The notes under the pieces: model-generated
Databases searched by the model: none
What the model saw: the letters and a program-made list of their open reading frames with translations, nothing else
What the model was told of the DNA's origin: nothing
Origin: Spirochaetales bacterium
GTDB taxonomy: Bacteria > Spirochaetota > Leptospiria > Leptospirales > Leptonemataceae
Assembly: GCA_015075425.1 (NCBI GenBank)
Contig: JABTUL010000001.1
Location: forward strand, 1,674,001 to 1,738,000
Direction: 5' to 3'
DNA length: 64,000 nt
Program-made: the position numbers and the translations under genes
Part shown: positions 23,748 to 39,718 of the stretch, in pieces
Layout: every line of letters begins with the position of its first letter
Position numbering within the stretch: the first letter of the stretch is position 1

Positions 23748-24059
23748 ATGAGGTCAGGGCCTGCTACGCTGCGCGAAAATCCAGCATATTCCAGGACGGA
23801 AGTTTTTCCAGAGAAGGAAAACGAGCTCTACGCTGTTGTGATTATTGACAATGATCACAATACATACCAGCAGGTTATCGACATCTGTATGAAAGCACTG
23901 GGTTGCGATTTCCAGCATGCCTTCTCCATAGCCCTGGCTGTTGACAATAACGGCGAAGCTGAGGTACTGCGCGCACCTTTAGATGAGGCCCGGCGTATTG
24001 CCTCGATCATTGAAACCATAGGAATCGAAGTCCGCCTGCTGCCACTTCTGGCCGGCTGA
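23748..24059 (+). CDS. ClpS-like Clp protease adaptor, divergent
   Basis: A 103-residue protein. Residues 26-103 match the ClpS fold: strand YAVVIIDND, helix TYQQVIDICMKAL, GCDFQHAFSIALAVDNNGEAEV, and the final helix EARRIASIIETIGIEV. ClpS delivers substrates with destabilising N-terminal residues to ClpA or ClpC, and clpC lies 5 kb away. Aligned by eye with E. coli ClpS, the N-end pocket is altered: NDD becomes DND, the gate Met positions become Tyr and Ala, and His66 becomes Asp. Specificity may therefore differ. A 25-residue polar N-terminal tail is normal for ClpS. Confidence 0.75.
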   Translation: MRSGPATLRENPAYSRTEVFPEKENELYAVVIIDNDHNTYQQVIDICMKALGCDFQHAFSIALAVDNNGEAEVLRAPLDEARRIASIIETIGIEVRLLPLLAG

Positions 24060-25360: not shown

Positions 25361-25687
25361 ATGCAAATGCAGGAGCGTCGTGGAAAGGAAAGTTTGTTGC
25401 TCGAGCTGGAGGGCAAATTTGATATAGAGGAGGCCATGCGCTTTGAGAGCCGGGTCAATGCCGTGCTTCCCGAGCGGATCAAAACCATAGCCCTTGACCT
25501 AGAAAAGCTCACCTATATTGATAGCTCGGCTATTGGTTCGATTATTAAAATTATGAACCTGGTGCGTAATTATGATGGGGAACTCGTTTTACTGGGAGTT
25601 TCCCCGCATATCCGCAACATATTTGCCCTGGCCCGCCTGGAAAGTTTTTTTGACATTAGAGAAAAGGAAAATTTTTCTTTAGTTTGA
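25361..25687 (+). CDS. STAS-domain anti-sigma factor antagonist
   Basis: A 108-residue single STAS domain like SpoIIAA or RsbV. The phosphorylatable serine sits in LTYIDSSAIGSI. The usual beta-alpha alternation ends with LARLESFFDI. Such proteins switch partners with an anti-sigma kinase, but no RsbW-like kinase is adjacent, so its partner lies elsewhere. AGGA upstream of the ATG is a fair ribosome site. The coding end overlaps the convergent gamma-carbonic anhydrase gene by 9 bases. Confidence 0.9.
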   Translation: MQMQERRGKESLLLELEGKFDIEEAMRFESRVNAVLPERIKTIALDLEKLTYIDSSAIGSIIKIMNLVRNYDGELVLLGVSPHIRNIFALARLESFFDIREKENFSLV

Positions 25688-26248
25688 ACTTGTAAGTGTT
25701 TTATACAGATCCCTGGCCTTCTTCGCAAGTGCGTCTTTATCAATGGTCAGTGGCTTTTTCTTTCTCGCCTTCAGATGCTCTGCCAGAGCAATGTATTCCA
25801 GGGAGCCGGCCAATGTCAGTAGATACGGGGCCCGATTTTCTTTGATGATGATTTTTCCTTCTTTTTCATACACCAGTGCATAAGCTGGTATGCCCGTGTT
25901 TCCGCGAATCAGGCAACGGGCTGTAACCACGGCAAAATCCCCGATGGTCGCCCCATCCAGCACAATGCAACCAATGCCCACAAGGGCCCCCCGGCCTATG
26001 CTGCAACCATGCAGTATCGCTCCATGCCCGATCAGAGCATAGTCACCGATCATGAGCGGATGATCCGGATCCACATGCAACGTGCAGTTATCCTGAATAT
26101 TCACTCCCTGACCGATGGTAATTGTGTTCAGATCCCCACGAAGCACACTGCCCGGCCAGATGGACGTATTCGTGCCCAGGGTGACCGAGCCCATTACACT
26201 GGCCATTTTGTGCACATAGGCTCCTTGCTTTGTGCTCATCCAACTCAT
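25679..26248 (-). CDS. Gamma-class carbonic anhydrase family protein
   Basis: A 189-residue left-handed beta-helix protein of the gamma-carbonic anhydrase/YrdA type. Hexapeptide turns run from about residue 15 to 130 (VMGSVTLGTNTSIWPGSVLR, DNCTLHVDPDHP, IGDYALIGHGAILHGC). The three zinc histidines are placed in TLHV, GHGA and LHGC. The C-terminal helix LTLAGSLEYIALAEHLK packs on the helix as in relatives. Many family members have weak or no measured carbonic anhydrase activity. It overlaps the AAA-VWA gene by 4 bases, so the two are translated from one message. Confidence 0.9.
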   Translation of the reverse strand: MSWMSTKQGAYVHKMASVMGSVTLGTNTSIWPGSVLRGDLNTITIGQGVNIQDNCTLHVDPDHPLMIGDYALIGHGAILHGCSIGRGALVGIGCIVLDGATIGDFAVVTARCLIRGNTGIPAYALVYEKEGKIIIKENRAPYLLTLAGSLEYIALAEHLKARKKKPLTIDKDALAKKARDLYKTLTSSN

Positions 26249-29244
26249 GCAACTCCTGCAACATGATAACGGTGGATGAGTTCCGTAATGCGACCGGCCA
26301 GAAGCGAAGGCAGGCTTGCATAATTTTCACTGCCAATGAAAAGCGATTCATGAAAAGCGGCATCGGGAATCGCCCTCGGGCCGATGCCCGCACCAACGCA
26401 AATGATCCCCTGATGACTGTAAGCATCCACAGCTTCTTTGAGATAGCGGGTATCTGCCGCGGTAATGTCGCGAGCCATGGAAACTCGTCCGCGTGCTCCG
26501 CGAAAATCAGAAACAAATATAAGAATTCTTGTCCGTGCTTCCTTGCTGAAAGCCTGAGCCAGTTCGCCAATCACCTGGTATTCGGCTACAGTATCTCCGT
26601 GCCAGCCCTCACAGAGGCCTTCCCAGAGTTCCTTTTCCATCTCCTGTGTGAAGAACGCATCCGGTTTCTTGTACCAGACCAGGTCAATGTGCTTCTTGCT
26701 ATTGGCAAGATCACTGTAGCCGGATACGCCAAACTCAATGCGGTGATTGCTCAAAATCCGCGAGAGACTCATCAGCGCCACGAGGACGGCCACACTGTAA
26801 TCAAAGTTAAAGATACGGCGGCCCTTGTTGACCGCAAACAGGACCTGGATTCCTTTCAGGCGATCTTCTTCCACAGATAGCGTCGTTCTGTCAAAGATTC
26901 GCCCATCGGATTTTCCGTTGAGGTATGCCAGGTAGCGTCGAACATCGAGGCGCGATCCCTGGTCCAGGTAACGCCGGCGGATCTGGATTTCCGGATCAAA
27001 CAATCGATCAATATCAAGGATGGCCTGTTCAATGCCGGCATCGAATAATGCTTTGAATTCCTGCAGGCTTACGCCCATACTGTAGGGCCATAAAGGACGG
27101 CGCTTGCGCAGAAATTCCTGGTAGATTTCTTCCGTGCGGTATCCCCAGCCGCCGCCCCCCTGACCGGGCTCACCCTGCCCTTTATTCCCCCGGGTGTCCG
27201 AGCCATACCAGGCGTCCGGGCCTTCTTTGGTACTGCCTCCCGTTTCCGGAGTATCGATCTCAATTCCTTTCTTGATGGCATCACCGGTGAGTTTACGGCG
27301 CGCCTTACCGGTATGCGCCTCCCGATAGTGTTCCTCCGGATTCCAGTCAATCCGATCCTTGTAGGTGCTCTGTTTTAAGACTTTTTTTTTTGCTTCTATT
27401 TCTTGAATTTTTGCCGGATCGACTCCTGCGAGAAGTTCTTTCAAAAGGCGCATGGCCTGATCTCTCTCCCGGGCGTCAGCGATCTCATGGATGTAAGCTA
27501 TACCGGCACCGCGTTCGAGCGCGAGCAGACCCTGCTCTGCATAGGCCAGCAGATGTTCGGCCCAGCGCCGGAAATTGGTCAGACCAAAACTGTAAGCTTC
27601 CACACTAAAACCACCAATTTCACGGCGGTGGGCTTTCTCCCGCAGGGCGAGGTGAAAGCGGGCCATGCGTTGGGCCACATCCCGGTCCACCGGCAAAAGA
27701 GCGCAGGCAAAATCGGTTAGACTTTCAACGCTTACCAGGGGATGAACAACGAATGCTGAGAACCTGTTGCGGAAGGCACGCGACACAGATGGTGAACTTT
27801 TTGTCAAACGAAAGTGTTTAACAGCAAAAATTCGCGCATCATCGGAGAGTAGCAGAACTTCCTGTTCCCCCGATTCCGGCGGCAGGACCAGCGCACGCGC
27901 GTCATCGGTCAGCATATTGAGCTTTTCAACAAGTTCCGGTCCGGCCGCTTCCAGCCCGCGCAAAAGAATGTAGTCGCCCATTTTTACAGCGCGCGTGAGC
28001 GGACCATCAACCCAGGTGACCTGGCCGGATTCCCCCTCACGGGTGACGGGCTTGAGCCCACCCAGAATATCTGCCGTATGCATTCCCCGGGACAGAGAAA
28101 TCGTCGTCAGGTTTTTTCCAGCAAGTGCGGCAAAGAAACTGGCAAACTCCTCGGGCTCAACATCGGCATCACTTTCCAGAAGTACATTCTCCCCCATTTC
28201 CACGGATCTGGCCAGCGACTCAAGCAATTCCAGCCGGGCCATGACAGCCGGGTGGGACCGGACAGCCTGATGAACACGGGTCTGTAAATTCTCTTTTTTT
28301 ACGGTCAGATGGGCACGACCGATTACGATTCTTCCAGCCTCCTCATGGACTGCTGGACGAATCAGAATTTTTTCCGGGGTCTTTTGCCCGATAAGCTCTT
28401 GGATAAAAGTTCGATCCGCCGGACTGCGGAACGGACTCAAATAAATATCGGAAACTTCACTGAGGGGATCCTGCCTGGCAGAGACAACGCGTGCTGCCAC
28501 CCGCTTGAGATTGCGTAAATTAAAATGAAAACGTTCCAGGTCATTGACGCCCAGCTTGCGTGCGAACAAGGCCTCCTCCATGGCCTGATTGATGCGCACC
28601 AGCTCCGCAATCTCTTCATCCTCAAGAGGGTACAATTCCCGAATGATGGTGGCCAGTTCCTCCGGGGGATACGAATCCACATACACTGCAGCAAAGTGCT
28701 TCTGGATTTCGCGCGGCAGACTTTTGCGTCCTTCAAATCCCGTGGCCGGATTCTGGGTGGCAACAAAGGAAAAGCCCTCGCGAGCCTCAATGATCGATCC
28801 ATCCCCCTCCAGCAGTTCCAGGCACCCGTCTGTAAAAACGGAGCTGAAGCGTTTGAGGACTTCCGGGGGTGCCAGATTCATTTCATCGGCCACAAAAGTG
28901 GAACCCGATCGTAGCGCCCGGGCCAGCAGTCCATCCTGCCAGACGAATTGATGACTGACCGGATCAATGCGATAGGCACCGATCAAATCCTCAGGCAGTG
29001 TATCTTCATTAAACGAGTAACGATAGACCGGGTGGCGGCGTTCCTGGTTGATATAATAGATCAGGGCATTTTTTCCCGAGCCGGCATCCCCGACCAGAAG
29101 GACGTTACGAAATTGTAGCAGCGGGTACAGAATGCGCTCCAGATTCCGCTCTGTAGTGGGCGTAAGTTTGAGGCGAGTTTCCGGGATCCAGCCAGCTTGA
29201 CCGGTTACGGGAATCGTCAGCCCAGCAATCGTGACTTGATCCAT
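26245..29244 (-). CDS. Midasin-like protein: active AAA, degenerate AAA, linker and degenerate VWA
   Basis: A 999-residue protein. AAA1 (about 30-250) is MoxR/dynein-like, with Walker A GDAGSGKN at 52-59 (N where S/T is usual) and Walker B FVADEMNLAP at 117-125. AAA2 (about 335-560) keeps the midasin-like layout (VSRAFRNRF near 487-495), but its P-loop region is NVLLESDADVEP and its Walker B is YILLRGLEAAGPE, so it should not hydrolyse ATP. A Lys/Gly-rich linker (near 640-720, TRGNKGQGEPGQGGGGW) precedes a VWA-like domain in which the MIDAS DxSxS is replaced by VNKGRR, while ILIFVSDFRG and GDT remain. Probably a remodelling ATPase; client unknown. In operon with a gamma-carbonic anhydrase gene. 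Confidence 0.85.
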   Translation of the reverse strand: MDQVTIAGLTIPVTGQAGWIPETRLKLTPTTERNLERILYPLLQFRNVLLVGDAGSGKNALIYYINQERRHPVYRYSFNEDTLPEDLIGAYRIDPVSHQFVWQDGLLARALRSGSTFVADEMNLAPPEVLKRFSSVFTDGCLELLEGDGSIIEAREGFSFVATQNPATGFEGRKSLPREIQKHFAAVYVDSYPPEELATIIRELYPLEDEEIAELVRINQAMEEALFARKLGVNDLERFHFNLRNLKRVAARVVSARQDPLSEVSDIYLSPFRSPADRTFIQELIGQKTPEKILIRPAVHEEAGRIVIGRAHLTVKKENLQTRVHQAVRSHPAVMARLELLESLARSVEMGENVLLESDADVEPEEFASFFAALAGKNLTTISLSRGMHTADILGGLKPVTREGESGQVTWVDGPLTRAVKMGDYILLRGLEAAGPELVEKLNMLTDDARALVLPPESGEQEVLLLSDDARIFAVKHFRLTKSSPSVSRAFRNRFSAFVVHPLVSVESLTDFACALLPVDRDVAQRMARFHLALREKAHRREIGGFSVEAYSFGLTNFRRWAEHLLAYAEQGLLALERGAGIAYIHEIADARERDQAMRLLKELLAGVDPAKIQEIEAKKKVLKQSTYKDRIDWNPEEHYREAHTGKARRKLTGDAIKKGIEIDTPETGGSTKEGPDAWYGSDTRGNKGQGEPGQGGGGWGYRTEEIYQEFLRKRRPLWPYSMGVSLQEFKALFDAGIEQAILDIDRLFDPEIQIRRRYLDQGSRLDVRRYLAYLNGKSDGRIFDRTTLSVEEDRLKGIQVLFAVNKGRRIFNFDYSVAVLVALMSLSRILSNHRIEFGVSGYSDLANSKKHIDLVWYKKPDAFFTQEMEKELWEGLCEGWHGDTVAEYQVIGELAQAFSKEARTRILIFVSDFRGARGRVSMARDITAADTRYLKEAVDAYSHQGIICVGAGIGPRAIPDAAFHESLFIGSENYASLPSLLAGRITELIHRYHVAGVA

Positions 29245-29262
29245 AATGCAGCAATCTTATGT

Positions 29263-29278
29263 TTGACCGGCGGGTCAA
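29263..29278. promoter_or_regulatory. Palindrome between divergent AAA-VWA and aminotransferase genes
   Basis: TTGACC, GGCG, GGTCAA: a perfect 6-bp dyad with a 4-base spacer. It is centred in the 52-base divergent gap, about 18 bases from each start codon. It may be an operator for both genes; TTGACC could also act as a -35 element toward the aminotransferase, but the -10 at that distance is poor. Confidence 0.35.
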
Positions 29279-29296
29279 GCCCTTTGATTAGGCCAC

Positions 29297-30963: not shown

Positions 30964-31881
30964 TTAGCTGCGGATTCGGGAATATCCGTAAAGACCGGCC
31001 AGGGCCAGAAGCGCAAATGCGCCGATGCCAAGGGCCAGGTTACGGTTGTTCTTGCCCATCGCTCCCAGATACGCTGCCAGAGGTGAATAGCCGCTGCAAA
31101 CCGGTCCGGTGATCAGTCCGGTGTTGTTCTTGGTGCCGGCTTTTGCCAGAACTTGAACGTTTCCTGACGGATACTCACCGTCCAGTGTAAAGGAGAAGAC
31201 TCCACCCTCGCTGTCCCATTTGATGCCCCAGAAGCCCGTGCTGCCGTCACGGCCCACTTCGTATCCAGCTGTTCCGCCGGTCACAGCAGCCCGACAGGAC
31301 TCGTCAAGGCCCACGTTCCAGTGACTCAAATCCCGGCCGTTCACATGGCTGACGCGGTAAGTCCATGTAGAGCCTTCCACGCCAATGAGTTCGACGCTGT
31401 AAGTGGAGTCCTTGTTATCATTAAGTTTGATGGTCACGCTGGAGATCACAGCGGCCGATTCCGAACCGCTGGCCGATTCCGAACCGCTGGCCGATTCCGA
31501 ACCGCTGGCCGATTCTGAGCCGCTGGCCGATTCTGAGCCGCTGGCCGATTCCGAACCGCTGGCTGATTCCGAACCGCTGGCTGATTCCGAACCGCTGGCT
31601 GATTCCGAACCGCTGGCTGATTCCGATCCGCTGGCTGATTCCGATCCGCTGGCTGATTCCGATCCGCTGGCTGATTCCGAACCGCTGGCAGATTCTGAGC
31701 CGCCTTCTGTGCCAAAGCCGCCTGTTTCTTCGCCGTCATCTGGCTCTGCAGCCCCCTCGCTGGCTTTTTCCCCACCCTGGGCCATGGCCAGAAGCCAGAA
31801 GTAATTATCATCCTTCTCCGCACAGGAGAGGAAAGTTGCCGCTGAAAGTGCCGCAATACCTGTGATTTTAATGAAATTCAT
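30964..31881 (-). CDS. Lipoprotein with 14 tandem SGSESA repeats and a C-terminal membrane anchor
   Basis: A 305-residue protein. The signal peptide ends in a lipobox (TFLSC, Cys20). An acidic/Gly region is followed by six-residue repeats SGSESA at about 60-143. A beta-rich domain of about 115 residues comes next (VTIKLNDNKDSTYSVELIG, GSTGFWGIKWDSEGG) with cysteines in LDESCRA and PVCSGY. The end is a hydrophobic helix and basic tail (ALGIGAFALLALAGLYGYSR), resembling C-terminal sorting tails. Start chosen at ATG 31881, with AAGGGG eight bases upstream; an extension to 31935 lacks support. Probably surface or periplasmic. Function unknown. Confidence 0.8.
   Translation of the reverse strand: MNFIKITGIAALSAATFLSCAEKDDNYFWLLAMAQGGEKASEGAAEPDDGEETGGFGTEGGSESASGSESASGSESASGSESASGSESASGSESASGSESASGSESASGSESASGSESASGSESASGSESASGSESASGSESAAVISSVTIKLNDNKDSTYSVELIGVEGSTWTYRVSHVNGRDLSHWNVGLDESCRAAVTGGTAGYEVGRDGSTGFWGIKWDSEGGVFSFTLDGEYPSGNVQVLAKAGTKNNTGLITGPVCSGYSPLAAYLGAMGKNNRNLALGIGAFALLALAGLYGYSRIRS
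31454..31705. repeat. 18-bp tandem repeat, 14 copies
   Basis: Fourteen contiguous 18-bp units inside the lipoprotein gene, typified by GCCGATTCCGAACCGCTG on the plus strand. Unit variants occur in blocks: 1-3 alike, 4-5 alike (TCTGAG), 7-9 alike (GCTGAT), 10-12 alike (GATCCG). Each unit is in frame, so copy changes alter length, not frame. There are no spacers, so it is not CRISPR. Confidence 0.95.
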
Positions 31882-31990
31882 TTTGCGTACCCCTTGAATT
31901 CTCTTATGGAAAGGAGACGGGAAATTCCGCACCAAACCATTCCTTCACCCGACTTTTTTTTTCCCATTACCGAAAAAAGGCAAGGAATTT

Positions 31991-37323: not shown

Positions 37324-37914
37324 TTATCGAATGGTGTGTTCGGTGCCCCGTTTCATGCGGGCAAGGTTTTCCCTGTGCCGCAGCAAAATGAGGATCAGTG
37401 CAATAAACATATATAAAAAAGTATAACTCTGGGGTGTTTCCAGCGGCCGGGGATGGAGCAGGTAGAATACCACAGGAAGCAGGGTGGCACCGGTCAAAGA
37501 ACCTACTGAAAAGATGCGAGTTACCACCACGGACAGGAGAGCCAGAGGAAACACTACGGCCACTCCTGTGGGGAAAAGAGCCAGAAACGTACCGAGGAAA
37601 GTGGCCACCCCTTTGCCGCCCCGGAAACGCAAAAAGGGGGAGTAGATGTGTCCGAGAGCCGCCGCCAGGCCGCAGAATTCTGGCCAGGGCGCGCCCAGGG
37701 GCCCGGCTAAATAGACCGGCAGATATCCTTTCCCCACGTCCAGGAGGAACACGAGAATACCGGCCAGAGGACCCGCCAGACGAAAAACATTGGAAGCTCC
37801 AGGATTGCCCGAACCGGCGGTCTGAATATCTGTGCGTCCAAACAGACGACTGATGAGCGGCGCAAACGGAATGCTGCCCAGAAAAAATGCCCCGGCCACA
37901 AAGAGCAAATTCAC
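37324..37914 (-). CDS. plsY: Acyl-phosphate:glycerol-3-phosphate acyltransferase PlsY
   Basis: Inner-membrane enzyme for the first acylation in phospholipid synthesis. 196 residues with about five membrane helices. The three family motifs are present: GSIPFAPLISRLFG near the N-terminus, GSGNPGASNVFRLAG (glycerol-phosphate binding) and SPFLRFRGGKGVAT. ATG overlaps the der stop by 4 bases. Confidence 0.96.
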   Translation of the reverse strand: MNLLFVAGAFFLGSIPFAPLISRLFGRTDIQTAGSGNPGASNVFRLAGPLAGILVFLLDVGKGYLPVYLAGPLGAPWPEFCGLAAALGHIYSPFLRFRGGKGVATFLGTFLALFPTGVAVVFPLALLSVVVTRIFSVGSLTGATLLPVVFYLLHPRPLETPQSYTFLYMFIALILILLRHRENLARMKRGTEHTIR

Positions 37915-39248
37915 GAACGATCCTCGCGAAAGAAAAGCTTGAGCGGGACTCCCTCCAGATGGTAGGTTTCCCGGATTTTGTTCTCAAAGAACTTACGATG
38001 TTCGGGGCGGAAATGATCAGCATTCTTTACGAAAAAAATAAAAGCAGGAGGGGTTTTCTCCGCCTGGGTTACATACATTACCCGCCCGGCGCGGATCTGT
38101 TTGCTCCAGCGCTGCACGTCCGTGTTCAGGGCAGCTGTGGGAATGCGGATGCTGTAGCGTTCGTGCAGGGCAAAACATTCTTCCAGTAGCTTCTGCAGGC
38201 GCTGGCCGGTCCTGGCACTGATGTACAGGAGCGGGCTATGATCCATGGCCGGAAAGCGTGACCGGAAATCCGCTGTCGTTTCCTTCATAGTGTCTGTGTT
38301 GCGGCTAACGGTATCCCATTTATTGAAGGCGATGATGCTGGCCTTTTTTTGTTTTTGAACCAGCCCCGCGATTTTTTTATCCTGATCCGTAATCTGGGTG
38401 CTGGCGTCCATGAGCAGGATGACAATGTCTGCCGCTTCAATCGCTCTTGTCGTCCGCGTATAAGATAGCCGGTCCGGCCGCGCAGCATCAGATCTCAAGT
38501 ATTTGGGTCGCCGGATACCGGCCGTGTCAATGATGCGGATGCGCTTGCCCCGCCAGCGGAAAAGCGAATCGATGCTGTCGCGAGTGGTGCCCGGGATCTC
38601 TGAGACCAGAGCCAGCTCTTTGTTTGTCAGAGCATTGAGAAGTGACGACTTCCCGGCATTGGGTTTACCTACGATGGCAATGGTCAAATCCTGGGATTCG
38701 GTATCCGAAAAAGAGCTGTGCGATTTCTGTCGTGCCTCCCGGCCTTCCCGCGCATGGATCACAGTGTAAAGAGCCTCAGTAACCGCGCCTACATTGTAAC
38801 GGCTTTTTACCGATACGGGAATAACTTCAAGTCCCTGGCGCTGGTATTCTTCCAGCAAGGCACCGGCGCTTTCGGGCTGATCGACTTTATTCAGAACATA
38901 AACTACCGGTATTTTCCTGTCTTTGCGAAATCGGGCGATGAGGTTGTATTCAAATCCGGAGGGAAACCCATCGAAAAGAACAATCAAGGCATCCATTCCC
39001 TCAAGGGCAGCCCGGGCCCGCTCCAGAATTGTCGGGGTCAATTCCTCTTCCGGCGGTAGATCCAGTCCCGGTAAATCATGCAGGAGGAAACGCTTTCCGT
39101 CCCTTTCCACCTCGCCGGCCAGGATGTCCCGGGTGAGGCCGCTGAAATCATCCGTGAGAGCACGATGCTTTCCAAGAAGTAAATTAAATAAACTTGATTT
39201 TCCGGCGTTTCTCTTGCCGAGCAGGGCTACTTTGGGCAGAGCTTTCAT
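37911..39248 (-). CDS. der: GTPase Der (EngA), ribosome assembly
   Basis: Double-GTPase needed for 50S maturation. 445 residues: first G domain with GKRNAGKSSLFNLLLG, DLPGLDLPPEE in the DxxG position and NKVDQ; second with GKPNAGKSSLLNALT, DTAGIRR and NKWD; then a KH-like C-terminal domain (PPAFIFFVKNADHF, NKIRETYHLEGVPLKLFF). The first domain's DxxG reads DLPGL, usual for Der being DTAGL or DTGG. It overlaps smpB and plsY by 4 bases on each side. Confidence 0.97.
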   Translation of the reverse strand: MKALPKVALLGKRNAGKSSLFNLLLGKHRALTDDFSGLTRDILAGEVERDGKRFLLHDLPGLDLPPEEELTPTILERARAALEGMDALIVLFDGFPSGFEYNLIARFRKDRKIPVVYVLNKVDQPESAGALLEEYQRQGLEVIPVSVKSRYNVGAVTEALYTVIHAREGREARQKSHSSFSDTESQDLTIAIVGKPNAGKSSLLNALTNKELALVSEIPGTTRDSIDSLFRWRGKRIRIIDTAGIRRPKYLRSDAARPDRLSYTRTTRAIEAADIVILLMDASTQITDQDKKIAGLVQKQKKASIIAFNKWDTVSRNTDTMKETTADFRSRFPAMDHSPLLYISARTGQRLQKLLEECFALHERYSIRIPTAALNTDVQRWSKQIRAGRVMYVTQAEKTPPAFIFFVKNADHFRPEHRKFFENKIRETYHLEGVPLKLFFREDRS

Positions 39249-39718
39249 GACCGTTTGTTGTGTTCCTTGAGAGCCCGGGCAATCTCCCGGCCGGCATCCT
39301 TTTTCTTTTCATCCTCACGTTTGTCCGCCTGCTTTTTCCCGCGGGCGACACCCAGGAGCAATTTTACCCGGCCCCGATCATTAAAATAGCATTTGAGCGG
39401 CACAACGGTCATCCGCTTTTCTTGAATTTGACTTTTCAATTGTAAAATTTCTTTTTTGTGCAGCAAAAGTTCGCGGCTGCGCTTTTCTTCGTGGTTGAAA
39501 ACACTGGCATGGGTGTAGCGATCAATCTGCATATTGATGAGTGCCAGACCGCTGCCAGCGGGAACGGCATAAGCATCATCCAGGCGGGCACGCCCGGACC
39601 GCAGGCTTTTTACTTCACTGCCCGTGAGGACGATACCGGCCTCCAGTGTCTCGCTGACCTCATAGTTCCGGCGTGCTTTCTTGTTTTCGATAACCGCCGA
39701 AGGCCGTGCCTTTTTCAC
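39245..39718 (-). CDS. smpB: SmpB, tmRNA-binding protein
   Basis: Partner of tmRNA in rescue of stalled ribosomes. 157 residues: NKKARRNYEVSETLEAGIVL, the RNA-binding GSEVKSLRSGRA, INMQIDRYTHAS, and the basic C-terminal tail (GKKQADKREDEKKKDAGREI), which enters the mRNA channel. It is preceded by the PDZ/Deg-like gene, 39 bases upstream. No tmRNA gene is visible nearby. Confidence 0.97.
   Translation of the reverse strand: MKKARPSAVIENKKARRNYEVSETLEAGIVLTGSEVKSLRSGRARLDDAYAVPAGSGLALINMQIDRYTHASVFNHEEKRSRELLLHKKEILQLKSQIQEKRMTVVPLKCYFNDRGRVKLLLGVARGKKQADKREDEKKKDAGREIARALKEHNKRS

Follow-up and report, generated by a model that had tools for sequence, protein, structure and literature searches.

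Does a bacterial chain that strings together two AAA modules and a VWA-like domain encode a counterpart of eukaryotic midasin, and what would such a chain do? We addressed this question for one gene in a 64,000-nucleotide stretch of a Spirochaetales bacterium genome (contig JABTUL010000001.1, positions 1,674,001 to 1,738,000 of the forward strand; hereafter the window), which an earlier note had described as a single-chain, midasin-like AAA-AAA-VWA protein with a dead second ATPase and an altered metal-ion-dependent adhesion site (MIDAS). The gene is a single open reading frame on the minus strand (26245-29244, ATG start) encoding 999 aa, and its start matches the conserved N-terminus MxxVxIAGxxxP of its orthologues. 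Our analysis favours, with a probability of roughly 0.6, the view that this member of the MoxR/midasin clade is a self-contained remodelling machine powered by ATP, in which a motor, a regulatory dead motor and a client-binding domain would share one chain.

The protein consists, in order, of AAA1, AAA2, a flexible linker and a VWA domain, with AAA and VWA parts joined in one open frame in the window gene and in nearly all intact orthologues. Pfam returned two AAA_5 stretches (2.5e-30), AAA_lid_7, which is the midasin lid (3e-12), and AAA_3 (9e-7); neither Pfam nor NCBIfam detected a VWA domain in the 999-aa protein, and NCBIfam gave only a sub-threshold match to GvpN. An AlphaFold2 model computed on the family alignment (mean predicted local distance difference test score, pLDDT, 79.6; predicted template modelling score, pTM, 0.62) places the AAA modules at about residues 1-300 and 300-618, followed by the linker and an alpha/beta C-terminal domain. 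The reading frame, Pfam and structure comparison agree with the architecture proposed in the earlier note, the two AAA modules being matched by profile and the VWA fold by structure.

The closest relative of the chain by sequence is midasin, the giant ATP-driven machine by which eukaryotes finish ribosomes. When the PDB was searched by phmmer for relatives of the window protein, yeast Rea1 (E 5e-92) and fission yeast Mdn1 came out on top, the best stretch covering both AAA modules (residues 28-446 against Rea1 1676-2091), and a profile of the whole family scored 515 bits against Rea1/midasin (E 4e-153, seven stretches), the best non-midasin protein being CbbQ at 59 bits. AAA1 with its lid matched Rea1 1676-1947 in one stretch at 136.7 bits, ahead of CbbQ (63), NorQ (53) and CobS (37), and AAA2 alone also found Rea1 as its best match (71.7 bits at 1282-1533). 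The lid family AAA_lid_7 (PF17867) reached 47 bits in the window protein against a cut-off of 22.7 and was present at E <= 0.1 in 21 of 24 family members; it exceeded the cut-off in 20 of 198 sampled Spirochaetota genomes, always within the carrier class and with the match at this locus, and in 0/14 controls. With the full model as query, Foldseek matched the tandem modules of the dynein (E 1e-20) and Rea1 (5e-18) rings, the highest sequence identity among these matches being to Rea1 (20-21%). Judged by sequence, the AAA pair is nearest to eukaryotic midasin, ahead of bacterial MoxR, CbbQ and NorQ, as had been proposed when the protein was likened to midasin rather than to separate MoxR and VWA pairs, and no named family with a defined function was found for it.

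The ATP-binding site of AAA1 is intact. Among the 24 orthologues on which all motif counts are based, the Walker A motif G52-D-A-G-x-G-K58-N59 is fixed, Walker B forms part of FVADEMNL (residues ~117-124) and TQNP at 163-166 is invariant, upholding the earlier reading of GDAGSGKN, with Asn for Ser/Thr, and an intact DE. The arginine finger, carried on helix 4 in Rea1 (PMC6286127), is lost from AAA1, where Arg occurs at position 181 in 1/24 orthologues and at 183 in 0/24. In AAA2, a profile-profile alignment of the two modules (hhalign, E 1e-9) lays ESDADVEP over the P-loop and RG over the Walker B DE, and the finger motif SRAFRNRF is kept, its register being backed by the same alignment and by both modules aligning to SRAFRNRF of Rea1. 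The previous claim that both the P-loop and the Walker B acids of AAA2 are gone held for the P-loop, absent from every orthologue, and for the Walker B of the window protein; the Walker B Asp, however, is not lost in every member, since family f3 has D/E there, with Asn in place of the catalytic Glu. AAA2 nevertheless looks hydrolysis-dead in the whole family, f3 with its D/E included. As read from these motifs, AAA1 and AAA2 have decayed in complementary ways, AAA1 being an ATP site without a finger and AAA2 a finger without an ATP site, so that one composite ATPase site per chain is predicted.

An active AAA combined with a dead AAA, a linker and a VWA resembles the division of labour between ChlI and ChlD, and the chain might be a fused metal chelatase in which AAA1 corresponds to ChlI/CobS and AAA2-linker-VWA to ChlD/CobT. 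ChlD has itself been noted as an AAA-VWA fusion (PMC10743472). However, the large chelatase subunit family PF02514 exceeded its cut-off in 0/47 class genomes compared with 5/14 controls, midasin far outscores CobS as a relative, and the MIDAS motif is lost, all of which render a chelatase highly improbable.

Between the AAA pair and the VWA domain lies a Gly-rich linker whose hyperconservation is the most unusual feature of the protein. Its sequence, TPETGGxxKEGxDAWYGxDTxGNxGxGEPxGGGxWGYRTEELY, is nearly fixed, and with a mean pairwise identity of 0.71 over residues 641-712, compared with 0.66 for the AAA1 core and 0.45 for the VWA domain, it is the most conserved segment of the protein, yet the prediction for the isolated segment is disorder, pLDDT falling below 50 over most of residues 619-702. 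The linker looks like a binding segment that folds onto a ring or a client.

The C-terminal 400 residues were modelled separately (mean pLDDT 69.9), and Foldseek comparison of this model with the PDB returned the NorD VWA (6e-12), human MDN1-MIDAS (3e-9) and Rea1-MIDAS (1.4e-8) domains ahead of integrin and vWF A domains; a profile of the C-terminal part alone found nothing meaningful in the PDB. As modelled, the domain belongs with the VWAs that work alongside AAA rings, given that the NorD, MDN1 and Rea1 domains match first. No intact MIDAS was found: the change to VNKGRR singled out in the earlier note is conserved in all 24 orthologues, in which DxSxS is replaced by N/S/A-K-x-R-R, and the ligands of the other two MIDAS loops are kept (Table 1). 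Aligned by hhalign, the DTSGS of MoxR-type VWA proteins falls in exact register on NKGRR, at a weak score (P 0.0043), and alignment with NorD-like VWAs covers the same area, again weakly (P 0.011); these comparisons serve motif register alone, which is also given by strand order in the models. From an invariant K-x-R-R in place of DxSxS, with Thr/Ser and Asp retained, we infer that the basic side chains probably occupy the metal site through a salt bridge, and that a client would be bound independently of metal.

The likeness of the VWA fold to NorD, its nearest match, and the relationship of AAA1 to CbbQ and NorQ, second only to midasin, could also mean that one chain does the job of NorQ-NorD, CbbQ-CbbO or CoxD-CoxE as a chaperone that matures a metalloenzyme or a respiratory complex, as MoxR-VWA pairs commonly do (PMC13036017, PMC9976466). 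Several carrier genomes, however, have separate NorQ-NorD pairs with an intact DxSLSTD MIDAS beside a COX1-family gene, and no oxidoreductase structural gene is found among the conserved neighbours of the AAA-AAA-VWA gene. COX1-family genes are present in 46/47 genomes, including class members without the AAA-AAA-VWA gene, so there is no tight link between the two and their co-occurrence is uninformative. Like the chelatase, a NorQD role is disfavoured, although it is conceivable as a minority possibility. The separate NorQ-like and NorD-like genes were observed at L104, L126 and L128-L133, several of them beside a COX1-family gene, and their DxSLSTD MIDAS is an unusual form.

We return to the self-contained remodelling machine as the preferred account. 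In AAA rings it is the following module that contributes the finger to an ATP site, so the AAA1 site, with its Walker A, Walker B and sensor 1, would be completed in cis by AAA2 of the same chain, and the contact from AAA2 to the next AAA1 would be a fixed structural joint. Three chains could together form a ring of six modules and three working sites, resembling a simplified midasin or dynein ring, on which the VWA domain, tethered by the Gly-rich linker, would dock and grip a client. Docking of a VWA finger in the pore of an AAA ring is known for NorQD (PMC13036017). Binding of the client would be metal-independent, likely via a positive patch, and ATP turnover would pull or rotate the VWA domain and linker, thereby remodelling or releasing an assembly intermediate. 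Some points weigh against this account. The Walker A Asn, which in every member stands in place of the Mg2+-coordinating Ser/Thr, may make AAA1 a slow or binding-only site; Ser-to-Asn at this position weakens Mg2+ binding in Ras-type P-loop proteins. The structural model is that of a monomer, with a modest pTM and the linker unresolved, and the metal-site claim is drawn from alignment register and the loss of three of five ligands.

The gene is present in 36 of 48 sampled genomes of the organism's class, among which no named Leptospira species is evident. Outside the class, no Spirochaetota genome in a sample of 393 passed E 1e-25, and none of 345 genomes passed E 0.01 with a profile of the C-terminal part. 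An alignment-based scan of ~85,000 species genomes, which used two AAA motifs and could therefore miss divergent relatives, found full-length relatives only in spirochaete-type records; one of these, labelled Hydrogenedentota, is placed by its contig in the class of the other carriers. A single-protein scan of genome contigs gave no match. The gene is single-copy, its tree agrees with taxonomy, and dN/dS, the ratio of non-synonymous to synonymous substitution, is ~0.02 between the closest pairs, with synonymous sites near saturation; the family is inherited vertically and is under strong purifying selection. Near-complete genomes occur among the class members without the gene, so it is not universally essential. 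Eukaryotic contamination was considered and rejected on synteny and on the taxonomy-congruent tree across many genomes. The orthologue in genome G020 is split into two overlapping frames (L059, 9929-10972 and 10959-13016), which reflects a frameshift or a sequencing error.

Among the known MoxR-VWA ternary conflict systems are some with VWAs that have no MIDAS aspartates (PMC7159879), so the altered MIDAS could be that of a component of a defence system. The protein had no match in PADLOC, however, and a single-copy gene with a taxonomy-matching tree and housekeeping neighbours, whose only matches in plasmid, phage and viral collections are partial ones to MoxR-type AAA, with no full-length homologue, is a scarcely credible candidate for one. 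In viral contigs L121, L122 and L124 (IMG/VR), a MoxR-like AAA adjoins a VWA protein with an intact DTSGS.

The gene neighbourhood offers a further reading. Downstream of the gene, the window and much of family f1 have a gamma-carbonic-anhydrase-like gene and then ribBA, with ends that sometimes overlap, and the order of the AAA-AAA-VWA and gamma-carbonic-anhydrase-like genes is the same in 11 loci, forming an apparent operon conserved in this family. In family f2, smpB lies directly downstream of the gene and der two genes downstream (tblastn for der); the order gene-smpB-der-plsY, with gaps or overlaps of a few bases, was seen in six genomes with informative flanks (L045-L049 and G022), plsY being found by tblastn in 5/6 of them, and the gene apparently heads an smpB-der-plsY operon. 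In a seventh f2 genome, G028, smpB-der is not beside the gene, and family f3 has neither arrangement. Both the f1 and f2 contexts are housekeeping settings. Promoter and terminator counts were at chance level, and Rfam gave no match.

The f2 order, which sets the gene before smpB (trans-translation), der (50S assembly GTPase) and plsY, hints at a ribosomal role, in which the protein would be a functional midasin counterpart, a large-subunit maturation factor working with Der/EngA. Midasin, its closest sequence relative, acts on pre-60S particles, and VWA8, another AAA-VWA protein, is reported to co-migrate with mitochondrial large-subunit intermediates (PMC10743472). On the other hand, the smpB-der neighbourhood was not found in f1, f3 or G028 and is 8.7 kb distant in the window, proximity to housekeeping genes may be coincidental, and midasin grips its ligands via the MIDAS metal, at a site that is altered here. 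Additionally, several near-complete class genomes are without the gene, so ribosome assembly does not in general depend on it. This role is unlikely on present evidence, although, given both the der link and the homology to midasin, large-subunit maturation is the most pointed hypothesis. Its fully specified form is distinctly doubtful: a ring of three chains that would act together with Der late in 50S assembly in the Leptospira class, with a single composite site in each chain and a VWA gripper that uses Arg/Lys and no metal.

Table 1. Features of the AAA-AAA-VWA gene and its neighbourhood, in window coordinates.
Feature	Residues	Position	Strand	Basis or conservation
Whole gene, AAA1-AAA2-linker-VWA, 999 aa		26245..29244	-	Full-length orthologues at 40-57% identity; AlphaFold2
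AAA1 module with midasin-type lid, ATP-binding site intact	28-300	28345..29163	-	AAA_5, AAA_lid_7; Rea1 match
AAA1 Walker A GDAGSGKN, Asn replacing Ser/Thr	52-59	29068..29091	-	N59 24/24
AAA1 Walker B FVADE	117-121	28882..28896	-	F117, A119, D120 and E121 invariant, V118 nearly
AAA1 helix-4 arginine-finger position LPREIQKHF, both Arg lost	176-184	28693..28719	-	Aligns with AAA2/Rea1 SRAFRNRF
AAA2 module, without ATP site	301-618	27391..28344	-	Rea1 match; hhalign to AAA1; DSSP of model
AAA2 degenerate P-loop LLESDADVEP	355-364	28153..28182	-	G-K-S/T in 0/24 orthologues
AAA2 arginine-finger motif SRAFRNRF, kept	488-495	27760..27783	-	R492, N493, R494 and F495 each 24/24
Gly-rich linker	641-712	27109..27324	-	Pairwise identity; pLDDT
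Pre-VWA helix and VWA domain	713-996	26257..27108	-	Foldseek against PDB
Altered MIDAS, NKGRR for DxSxS	806-810	26815..26829	-	K807, R809 and R810 24/24; 806 N/S/A, never D
MIDAS loop 2 GDT, Thr/Ser ligand kept	883-885	26590..26598	-	885: T 19/24, S 5/24
MIDAS loop 3 SDFRG, Asp ligand D913 kept	912-916	26497..26511	-	24/24 invariant
Gamma-carbonic-anhydrase-like hexapeptide protein		25679..26248	-	Pfam Hexapep 2e-16; start overlaps AAA-AAA-VWA stop by 4 bases
der/engA, 50S-assembly GTPase		37914..39248	-	Pfam MMR_HSR1, KH_dom-like of EngA; 8.7 kb from gene
smpB		39248..39718	-	Pfam SmpB 3e-52

Other features of the window were also noted. A mere 52 bases (29245-29296) separate the gene from a divergent aminotransferase gene, a pair that is kept in 9 loci, one of them in f2. 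In the guaA-ribBA interval, a 103-aa ClpS-like adaptor (23748-24059, plus strand; Pfam 4e-11, below NCBIfam cut-offs) is encoded, which is a neighbour in 8 loci. Within an open reading frame at 30964-31935 (minus strand), an 18-base unit is repeated in tandem at 31453-31703 (13.9 copies, 95% match) and encodes SESASG repeats in a short lipoprotein-like protein without a Pfam match.

Single-chain midasin-type AAA-VWA remodellers have been treated as eukaryotic, with AAA and VWA domains residing in different proteins in archaea and bacteria (PMC10743472), and our literature search found neither a bacterial midasin nor this AAA-AAA-VWA protein described. A bacterial version of ~1000 residues, with one ATP site, one finger and one gripper, would be a tractable model: the apparent complementary decay of its modules yields a clean prediction of the ATP-burning interface, and the fixed K-x-R-R at the MIDAS site allows one to ask whether a VWA gripper works without metal. 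The distribution of the gene among Leptospira relatives might point to an unusual step of assembly in the group. Neither this class-restricted distribution nor the complementary loss of the arginine finger nor the hyperconserved linker had figured in the earlier note.

How, then, does the protein compare with known systems? Dynein heavy chain has six AAA modules, a stalk and a microtubule-binding domain and is without a VWA, whereas the window protein has two AAA modules and a VWA. Mg-chelatase ChlI/ChlD and cobaltochelatase CobS/CobT share an active AAA, an inactive AAA, a linker and a VWA as parts, but these are distributed over separate subunits that act with a large porphyrin-binding subunit, and their AAA similarity is far below that of midasin. 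The MoxR-VWA two-protein systems, such as NorQ-NorD, CbbQ-CbbO, CoxD-CoxE and RavA-ViaA, have in common with it a MoxR-clade AAA and, in NorD, the best solved match to the VWA; they differ from it in their separate, adjacent AAA and VWA genes, and the NorQ-NorD, CbbQ-CbbO and CoxD-CoxE pairs also in their single AAA and intact MIDAS. VWA8, which is eukaryotic and mitochondrial, is alike by its published description, with AAA modules and a C-terminal VWA in one chain (PMC10743472). Midasin (Mdn1/Rea1) is closest by sequence, and its MIDAS domain is among the closest VWA structures: tandem midasin-type AAA modules with AAA_lid_7, active and degenerate modules in one chain, and a flexible linker followed by a C-terminal VWA are found in both. 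Midasin, however, has six AAA modules in ~4900 aa, a long structured linker arm that the bacterial protein of two modules and ~1000 aa is without, and an intact DxSxS-T-D MIDAS, in contrast to the N/S/A-K-x-R-R found here alongside the Walker A Asn of AAA1 and an AAA2 without any P-loop. The protein is not a midasin, since the number of modules and the MIDAS differ, even though its AAA type, lid, linker and VWA fit that family.

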